This document shows positions 27,632 to 30,101 of a stretch of DNA of 64,000 nucleotides, in pieces (within the stretch, counting starts at the first letter, position 1; every line of letters begins with the position of its first letter). Location: assembly GCA_947452315.1 (NCBI GenBank), contig CANGCX010000002.1, positions 1-64,000 on the forward strand, read 5' to 3'. This DNA comes from Opitutia bacterium (GTDB lineage Bacteria > Verrucomicrobiota > Verrucomicrobiia > Opitutales > Opitutaceae). The translations under genes were made by a program, and so were the position numbers. The notes below the pieces were generated by a model. The model was given only the letters and a program-made list of their open reading frames with translations. It did not search any database and had not been told where the DNA came from.

Positions 27632-29119
27632 ATGAGCGAGCAAAAAGAATTACTCACGACCAACCGCAAAGCTCTCACGATCAATCTGGACGAGCCAAAA
27701 TATGGCACCTTTGCAGAAATCGGTGCCGGCCAAGAAGTAGCACGGGTGTTCTTCCAAGCGGGGGGCGCTTCCGGCACCATCGCCAAAACGATCTCAGCCT
27801 ACGATATGACGTTTAGCGACGCTATCTACGGCAAAGCCCCACGCTATGTCTCCCGCGAGCGTCTCGGCCTCATGCTCGATCACGAGTATCAACTTCTTAA
27901 TGAGCGCCTAGCAACCCAGCGCGGCGAACGCACGACCTTCTTCGCCTTCGCCGACACCGTTTCTGCGCGTAATTTCAAAGGTACCAATGAAGCTCACGGC
28001 TGGATGGGTATCCGTTTCCAAACCGATCCCGGCGGCCCACCCAGTGAAGTCGTGCTGCACGTGCGCATGTGGGACAAAGAAAACATCCTCCAGCAACAAG
28101 CTCTTGGTATAATCGGGGTCAATCTGATCTACGGCGCTTTTTACTATCACACCGACCCGCGCAAGCTAGTCGAATCACTTCTCGATAACCTCTCCGCCGA
28201 TCGAATCGAAGTCGATATGTTGAAACTAAGCGGCCCCGCGTTTCAGAACGTGGATAACCGCCTAATGTCGCTCATGCTCGTAGAATTCGGCCTCACTAAC
28301 GCCGTCATGTTCGGGCCTGGCGGGGACGTGCTTCAACCCTCCGAAGTTCTTTACCGTAAACCCATACTCGTCGAACGCGGTTCCTTCCGTCCAGTCACAC
28401 ACGTCAACGTCGACATGCTTAACTGTGCGACCGCCCAATTCGTCCAAGAACCGTCAGTGAAAGGTAAACAAGTAGTCGTGCTCATGGAAATCACCATGCA
28501 CAACCTACTAGCCGCGGGGGAACTCGACCCCAAAGATTTTCTCGCGCGCGTAGATCTCTTAGGTGACATCGGCTTCAACGTCCTGATCTCAAATTACTCC
28601 GAATACTACCGACTCACTTCTTACTTTCGGCGCTACACCAAAGAAATGATCGGCGTCACGATGGGCATCAATAACCTCATCGAAATTTTCAACGAAAAAT
28701 ATTACGAGAATCTAGAGGGTGGCATCTTAGAATCCTTTGGCCGCCTGTTCCGCAATTCGGTTAAACTTTATATTTATCCGATGCGCCAGGATGGCTTCGA
28801 TGTTTACACCGCCTCAGGCCAATCCGTCCCAATCACCTCAGACCGCACCCCGAGTCACGCCTTCGCATCCAGCGTTCTCATCAACGCCAAAAACGTCCAG
28901 ATCGCGGATCACCTGCGCAACCTCTACGCCCACTTATTAGAAGCACACTACATCGACTGCATCGTTGGATTTGATCCCTCAATTCTTCATATTTTTTCTC
29001 GTGATGTCTTGCGCCGCATCAAAGAAGGCGACGTCTCTTGGGAAAAAATGGTGCCAGAAGCTGTCGTCGCAGCGATCAAACGTCGCGAACTCTTCGGTTG
29101 CACAAATACCAAAAGCTGA
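27632..29119 (+). CDS. Conserved 495-aa cytosolic protein of unknown function
   Basis: No signal peptide or membrane helix. It opens with a conserved-looking LTTNRKALTINLDEPKYG and TFAEIGAGQEVARVFFQAGG, followed by FADTVSARNFKGTNEAHGW and WMGIRFQTDPGGPPSEVVLH. From memory, homologues are widespread and carry conflicting names (including nicotinate-nucleotide adenylyltransferase or TonB-dependent receptor), but I see neither a nucleotidyltransferase H-x-G-H motif nor a beta-barrel or plug, so those names are not adopted. It stands alone between sppA (divergent) and the dapF-like gene. Function is unknown. Confidence 0.85.
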   Translation: MSEQKELLTTNRKALTINLDEPKYGTFAEIGAGQEVARVFFQAGGASGTIAKTISAYDMTFSDAIYGKAPRYVSRERLGLMLDHEYQLLNERLATQRGERTTFFAFADTVSARNFKGTNEAHGWMGIRFQTDPGGPPSEVVLHVRMWDKENILQQQALGIIGVNLIYGAFYYHTDPRKLVESLLDNLSADRIEVDMLKLSGPAFQNVDNRLMSLMLVEFGLTNAVMFGPGGDVLQPSEVLYRKPILVERGSFRPVTHVNVDMLNCATAQFVQEPSVKGKQVVVLMEITMHNLLAAGELDPKDFLARVDLLGDIGFNVLISNYSEYYRLTSYFRRYTKEMIGVTMGINNLIEIFNEKYYENLEGGILESFGRLFRNSVKLYIYPMRQDGFDVYTASGQSVPITSDRTPSHAFASSVLINAKNVQIADHLRNLYAHLLEAHYIDCIVGFDPSILHIFSRDVLRRIKEGDVSWEKMVPEAVVAAIKRRELFGCTNTKS

Positions 29120-29246: not shown

Positions 29247-30101
29247 ATGCGATTTCACAAATACCACGCCCTCGGCAACGACTACATTGTTCTTGATCCC
29301 CGCGATTTTCCATCGTGGCAGCCAGCACCGACGACCGAGCAGATCCGTGTCGTGTGCCACCGCAACTTCGGGGTCGGCTCCGACGGTATTCTTTGGGGTC
29401 CCTTGCCATCACAAAAAAGCCAATTCGGTCTACGTATTTTTAACCCCGATGGCTCTGAAGCCGAAAAATCTGGTAATGGCCTGCGCATTTTCTCGCGCTT
29501 CCTCTACGATCAAGGTCTAGCCAAACAACCGAACTTCACAATCGAAGTTCCTGGCGGCCAGGTTGCCGTAGCACTCAAGGATAACGCTCAATTGATCTCC
29601 ATTGCCATGGGGCACGTCAGTTTTTCGTCAGAAAAAATTCCTGTCGTCGGATCTGCGCGCGAAGTGATCAACGAGAAAATCAAGATTCTAGACCGTGATT
29701 TCACGTATTGCGCTGCCACAATCGGCAACCCGCATTGTGTTCTCCCGCTCACAGAAATCTCGGCCGACATGGCCCACAAATACGGCCCACATCTTGAGAC
29801 CCACGCGAATTTCCCGCGCAAGACTAATGTCCAATTTCTCAAAGTTCTGGATCGTGCCAATATTCAAATTGAAATCTGGGAACGTGGAGCCGGTTATACC
29901 CTCGCCTCCGGCAGCAGCAGTAGCGCCAGCGCGGCTGTGGCCCATCGCCTCGGTCTGGTTGATCGCAACATAACGGTTCATATGCCCGGCGGCAAAATCG
30001 GCATAGAAATCGGTGACGAGTTTTCCATCATGATGACTGGCACCGTAAACAAAGTCGCTGAAGGTCACATGCACCCAGAACTTTTTGCGATCAAAGTCTA
30101 G
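29247..30101 (+). CDS. DapF-fold protein (diaminopimelate epimerase homologue) lacking both catalytic cysteines
   Basis: A 284-aa protein with the two-lobed DapF fold: the start FHKYHALGNDYIVLDPRDF and NPDGSEAEKSGNGLR are diagnostic. In diaminopimelate epimerase two Cys act as acid and base, one in the CGNG motif and one in the GETxACG motif. Here the first is Ser (residue 75, bases 29469-29471) and the second is Ser (residue 221, in TLASGSSSSA), and the Glu of GAGET is Tyr (residue 217). The ERG that binds the substrate is kept. The protein may thus not be a functional epimerase, or may act on another substrate; a second dapF elsewhere would be expected. Confidence 0.82.
   Translation: MRFHKYHALGNDYIVLDPRDFPSWQPAPTTEQIRVVCHRNFGVGSDGILWGPLPSQKSQFGLRIFNPDGSEAEKSGNGLRIFSRFLYDQGLAKQPNFTIEVPGGQVAVALKDNAQLISIAMGHVSFSSEKIPVVGSAREVINEKIKILDRDFTYCAATIGNPHCVLPLTEISADMAHKYGPHLETHANFPRKTNVQFLKVLDRANIQIEIWERGAGYTLASGSSSSASAAVAHRLGLVDRNITVHMPGGKIGIEIGDEFSIMMTGTVNKVAEGHMHPELFAIKV

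Follow-up and report, generated by a model that had tools for sequence, protein, structure and literature searches.

Diaminopimelate (DAP) epimerase, DapF, is described as working through a thiol/thiolate pair (PMC12039745), and its ability to remove a very weakly acidic proton is attributed chiefly to this pair. In the Anabaena enzyme, the backbone amide of the glycine at +3 of the second catalytic site contacts the catalytic sulphur (PMC12039745). Serine is a poorer base than cysteine (PMC8142540), and in HisR the C67S and C209S replacements greatly reduce turnover (PMC11602996).

By analogy, natural precedents for the replacement of one or both cysteines are offered by a Thr/Cys racemase and, within the proline racemase superfamily, by Ser/Cys and Ser/Thr enzymes. 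The accessible part of the work on that superfamily describes Ser/Cys 4-hydroxyproline 2-epimerases, whose catalytic serine is held by the residue at +3, and Ser/Thr trans-3-hydroxyproline dehydratases (PMC4113996). These proteins resemble the one studied here in having a DapF-like fold, serine in place of a catalytic cysteine and a +3 residue that positions this serine, but they belong to another family with other substrates, their epimerase keeps one cysteine, and no Ser/Ser pair is reported in that part of the source (PMC4113996). The aspartate/glutamate racemase EcL-DER (Thr/Cys) has likewise exchanged a catalytic cysteine for a hydroxyl residue, although its fold is of an unrelated, glutamate racemase-like class and its replacement is a single one (PMC8142540). 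A literature search, which mostly did not reach subscription journals, found no published description of a DapF with serine at both catalytic positions (Ser/Ser DapF).

A DapF family protein without the catalytic cysteines

The window (the whole stretch of DNA analysed, 64,000 nucleotides) comes from a 2.77 Mb metagenome-assembled genome of an Opitutia bacterium (Opitutales, Verrucomicrobiota) that is 84% complete. It contains an intact open reading frame, from ATG to TAG, of 284 amino acids plus stop:

29247..30101, + strand: dapF of the Ser/Ser type, encoding a diaminopimelate epimerase family protein (open reading frame, TIGR00652, PF01678, structure alignment, AlphaFold2, PDB fold matches)

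The protein matches the DapF equivalog TIGR00652 over its full length with 234.6 bits (cut-off, 114.65 bits). Both of its halves match PF01678, the only Pfam family detected; the proline racemase family is not matched. Identity to most solved DapF structures is 33-35%. The AlphaFold2 model, built with 46 sequences (mean pLDDT 93), adopts the DapF fold, with two facing helices that carry the catalytic positions at their N-termini: predicted helices 76-88 and 222-234 are preceded by Ser75 and Ser221, respectively. The best PDB fold matches to this model were all DapF, and PhzF structures appeared as remote matches. PhzF shares the DapF-like fold and catalyses its reaction without cysteine, but it is about 14% identical to the window protein and its reaction is a different one.

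The residues on which the comparison with characterized enzymes turns, all located by alignment, are the following:

29277..29279, + strand: Asn11, conserved substrate-site residue
29442..29444, + strand: Asn66 (H. influenzae Asn64), conserved substrate-site residue
29466..29468, + strand: Lys74, directly before Ser75
29469..29471, + strand: Ser75, codon TCT, at the site of catalytic Cys73; precedes helix 76-88 (also AlphaFold2)
29733..29735, + strand: His163 (H. influenzae His159), conserved
29826..29828, + strand: Asn194 (H. influenzae Asn190), conserved substrate-site residue
29871..29873, + strand: Glu209 (H. influenzae Arg205)
29880..29888, + strand: Glu212-Arg213-Gly214, the conserved ERG
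29895..29897, + strand: Tyr217, replacing the Glu of GAGET (H. influenzae E213)
29907..29909, + strand: Ser221, codon TCC, at the site of catalytic Cys217; precedes helix 222-234 (also AlphaFold2)
29916..29918, + strand: Ser224, at +3 from Ser221

In the alignment to solved structures, Ser75 is paired with the mutated residue of 2q9h (H. influenzae C73S) and Ser221 with that of 2q9j (H. influenzae C217S), and both catalytic cysteines are thus missing from the window protein. A first-pass annotation of this DNA had read both positions as serine and the Glu of GAGET as tyrosine, with fold and ERG retained; the alignment with characterized DapF that it proposed, together with the TIGR00652 match and the model, confirms each of these readings. 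Three other cysteines are still present (37, 155 and 164), so a general avoidance of cysteine is not the explanation.

The substrate site is intact, with the counterparts of H. influenzae Asn11, Asn64, Asn190, Glu208, Arg209 and His159 all conserved. Across the clade of Ser/Ser proteins, N11, N66, G76, N77, H163, N194, E212, R213 and G222 are kept, and the clade-wide changes are S75, S221, S224, K74, I81, E209, Y217, Q196 and a few others. Position 74 is Lys in 98% of the clade and Met in 48 of 53 Cys/Cys sequences; position 209 is Glu in the clade and Arg or Lys in every Cys/Cys sequence; and position 224 is an invariant Ser in the clade as opposed to an invariant Gly in the Cys/Cys set (53/53). 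Set beside the known DapF of H. influenzae, E. coli, Anabaena and Arabidopsis, the Ser/Ser protein is alike in full-length homology, predicted fold, substrate-site Asn, Arg and Glu residues and genomic role after DapL, but differs in both cysteines, in the serine that takes the place of the +3 glycine of the second site, and in the clade-specific Lys74, Ile81, Glu209 and Tyr217, the last of which also occurs in some Cys/Cys enzymes.

The tyrosine, 98% conserved in the clade, had been listed among the signs of altered function. It is also found in the Cys/Cys DapF of Ilyobacter and Acetoanaerobium, and the same position is Ile in the Anabaena and Ala in the Arabidopsis structure. As it is common to some Cys/Cys enzymes, the Glu-to-Tyr change is little informative, and we rejected it as a mark of lost function.

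The Ser/Ser form is conserved and under purifying selection

A first set of homologous loci was Ser/Ser throughout (112/112), and so were all members of the clade in a later collection (194/194). At both sites, TCN and AGY serine codons are used across the clade. No Cys/Ser or Ser/Cys intermediate was found among the Verrucomicrobiota sequences read, and the Ser/Ser proteins form one branch (SH-aLRT 99), with one change of state on the tree. The dN/dS ratio between congeners, calculated without the L038 comparison (misaligned by an indel), is about 0.03 (range 0.02-0.06), indicating strong purifying selection. A pseudogene or a sequencing error was rejected on the basis of this ratio and of the 194/194 conservation, in agreement with the first-pass annotation, which had argued against a pseudogene from the clean protein and the codon use.

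The clade comprises most Opitutales families and a few others in Verrucomicrobiota (f38, f48, f54, f71, f74 and f81). The gene is carried by a Lacunisphaera metagenome-assembled genome (L103) and persists in genomes as small as 0.9 to 1.3 Mb (G042, G048). Matches in a plasmid collection were all below 40% identity, the four that were read being Cys/Cys, and none were found in the viral contigs searched. Judged by its sequences, Ser/Ser DapF is a real, conserved variant, orthologous to other DapF, without catalytic cysteines.

Pathway context points to a need for an epimerase

The search for a second dapF with both cysteines, suggested by the first-pass annotation, was carried out: no second DapF-family gene was found in the source genome, at 84% completeness of the assembly. 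Most Opitutales genomes, several of them single-contig and others two-contig, likewise yielded no canonical dapF. The source genome encodes the LL-DAP aminotransferase DapL (C52:6092-7303; TIGR03542, 560 bits) and LysA (C13:18975-20228; TIGR01048, 451 bits), and gave no match to Ddh. The product of DapL is LL-DAP and the substrate of LysA is meso-DAP; with DapL and LysA present and Ddh absent, an epimerase is therefore required.

No DAP or lysine genes were identified adjoining the window dapF; its neighbours encode SppA, an FeS-assembly protein, an ECF sigma/anti-sigma pair, a FabV-like reductase and a D-Tyr-tRNA deacylase. Directly upstream (27632-29119, + strand) lies a gene for a 495-aa protein that matches no Pfam family at 1e-3 and NCBIfam only weakly, below threshold; of 61 representative Ser/Ser loci, about 15 have this gene beside dapF.

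The aminotransferase step varies within the order. Three relatives without a TIGR03542 DapL were scanned against NCBIfam, and NF004937 passed its cut-off in two and just missed it in the third. Several Opitutales families (L270-L278, L280, L285) have the NF004937-type LL-DAP aminotransferase and Opitutaceae the TIGR03542 type, a second replacement within the same pathway. As for the product, the accessible part of one study reports DAP at a low level by GC/MS in Opitutus terrae and Lacunisphaera, no DL-DAP by TLC in Lacunisphaera strains, and one Lacunisphaera strain annotated with DapL and DapF, the catalytic residues receiving no comment there (PMC5303756).

Ser/Ser DapF is largely missing from genomes with Cys/Cys DapF or Ddh

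A DapF match was present in 296 of 323 Opitutales genomes; by score class it was of Ser/Ser strength in about 265 and of Cys/Cys strength in 31, and the residues themselves were read as Cys/Cys in G020, G025, G030, G043, G269 and G331. Strong Ddh matches occurred in 11 Opitutales genomes, nine without DapF and two (G484, G501) with Ser/Ser DapF as well. Most Opitutales without the Ser/Ser gene thus have Cys/Cys DapF or Ddh instead. The exchange can be followed at short range: in family f19, genus g43 is Ser/Ser and genus g58 mostly has Ddh, and genus g40 contains genomes with Ser/Ser DapF alone, with Ddh alone and with both. Applied to the displacement counts, a Fisher test gave p of about 3e-32 for genomes that are related and hence non-independent. 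A better argument, for that reason, is the handful of separate replacements counted from the tables in f1, f8, f99, f16 and f19. Being mostly absent where Cys/Cys DapF or Ddh is present, the Ser/Ser gene behaves as a working DAP epimerase.

About 18 of the 323 genomes have none of the three routes (Ser/Ser DapF, Cys/Cys DapF or Ddh). Many of these are small or fragmented, but two, G580 and G477, consist of one contig each, which leaves room for an unrecognised epimerase or route. G580, G477, G668 and G032, at 93-99% estimated completeness, lack DapF and any strong Ddh match. Weak matches above the cut-off to DAPDH_C (PF16654) were recorded in G014, G015, G022, G072, G580, G642 and many g62 genomes (L143-L148); they lie in reading frames of roughly 300-400 aa, score far below true Ddh and correspond to a Ddh-like dehydrogenase. 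In one genome, G468, a further match of undecided class accompanies the Ser/Ser one.

A second DapF-like family retains both cysteines (L315, L316, L317, L318, L319 and L320, in G160, G261, G290, G321, G309 and G318). Its motifs are LCGNGTACF and ...FEFGVEAETLACGTG; ERG is changed to EFG, which turns the substrate Arg into Phe, and GNPH to TGVPH. This EFG family probably acts on another substrate. Outside Opitutales, the EFG paralogue occurs beside Ser/Ser DapF (G160, G261) or beside canonical Cys/Cys DapF (G309, G318). G290 and G321, very large and partly contaminated assemblies, have both Ser/Ser and canonical Cys/Cys DapF.

Proposed role and alternative readings

Taken together, the genomic and sequence data suggest, with good but incomplete confidence, that Ser/Ser DapF is the working DAP epimerase of Opitutales. 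The enzyme would take LL-DAP from DapL and provide the meso-DAP that LysA and peptidoglycan require. Less certain is how it would do so. Positioned where the two facing helices begin, Ser75 and Ser221 may form an acid/base pair in place of thiol and thiolate, a direct two-base mechanism to which we give an even chance. Clade-specific neighbours may help the serine pair, namely Lys74 immediately before Ser75 and Ser224 at +3 of Ser221; from the analogy with the Ser-type proline racemase relatives, we infer that Ser224 may position the catalytic serine as their +3 residue does.

The protein could also be a DAP epimerase in which the proton is carried by Lys74 and Tyr217, or by the conserved His163 and Glu212, the serines only binding or positioning the substrate. 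Lys74 and Tyr217 adjoin the two sites in sequence and are each 98% conserved in the clade, Glu209 stands where an Arg is otherwise conserved, and PhzF, the remote fold match, illustrates that the DapF fold supports chemistry without cysteine. Yet neither serine varies in the clade, whichever codon type (TCN or AGY) encodes it, tyrosine at 217 also accompanies intact cysteine pairs, and serine is the catalyst in the proline racemase relatives as far as the accessible part of that source describes them (PMC4113996); we consider this arrangement unlikely.

A further departure, and one that we hold to be improbable, is that the Ser/Ser protein recognises DAP or a related amino acid but is not the DAP epimerase, acting instead as an isomerase of altered specificity or in binding or regulation, with another, unrecognised enzyme making meso-DAP. 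The loss of both catalytic cysteines is in its favour, as are the poor activity of Cys-to-Ser mutants (PMC11602996), the Opitutales genomes without any known meso-DAP route, and the fact that some members of the DapF family, HisR and O-ureidoserine racemase among them, act on other substrates. The reduced turnover in HisR and the weaker basicity of serine were also counted against the reading of Ser/Ser DapF as an epimerase. However, the DAP-binding residues are kept, and genomes with Cys/Cys DapF or Ddh tend to lack the gene, as would be expected only of proteins that share one function; this pattern, and the need for an epimerase between DapL and LysA where Ddh is missing, speak against the non-epimerase that the first-pass annotation had offered as one option. 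Another of its options, an inactive paralogue, fares worse. An inactive remnant or pseudoenzyme has the missing cysteine pair as its only point, and it is hardly credible for the sole DapF gene found, present order-wide under a dN/dS of about 0.03 with its substrate and other active-site residues kept, and retained even in the 0.9 to 1.3 Mb genomes.

Implications

Annotation pipelines call DapF without a check of the catalytic residues. If the proposed role is true, an enzyme that lacks both thiols naturally and across an order would put the thiol/thiolate view to a direct test, and resistance would be expected to thiol-directed DapF inhibitors such as aziridino-DAP and to disulphide inactivation. 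If the Ser/Ser protein is not an epimerase, Opitutales would hold an as yet unrecognised route to meso-DAP. The choice lies between serine being capable of this demanding reaction and Opitutales making meso-DAP in a novel way.
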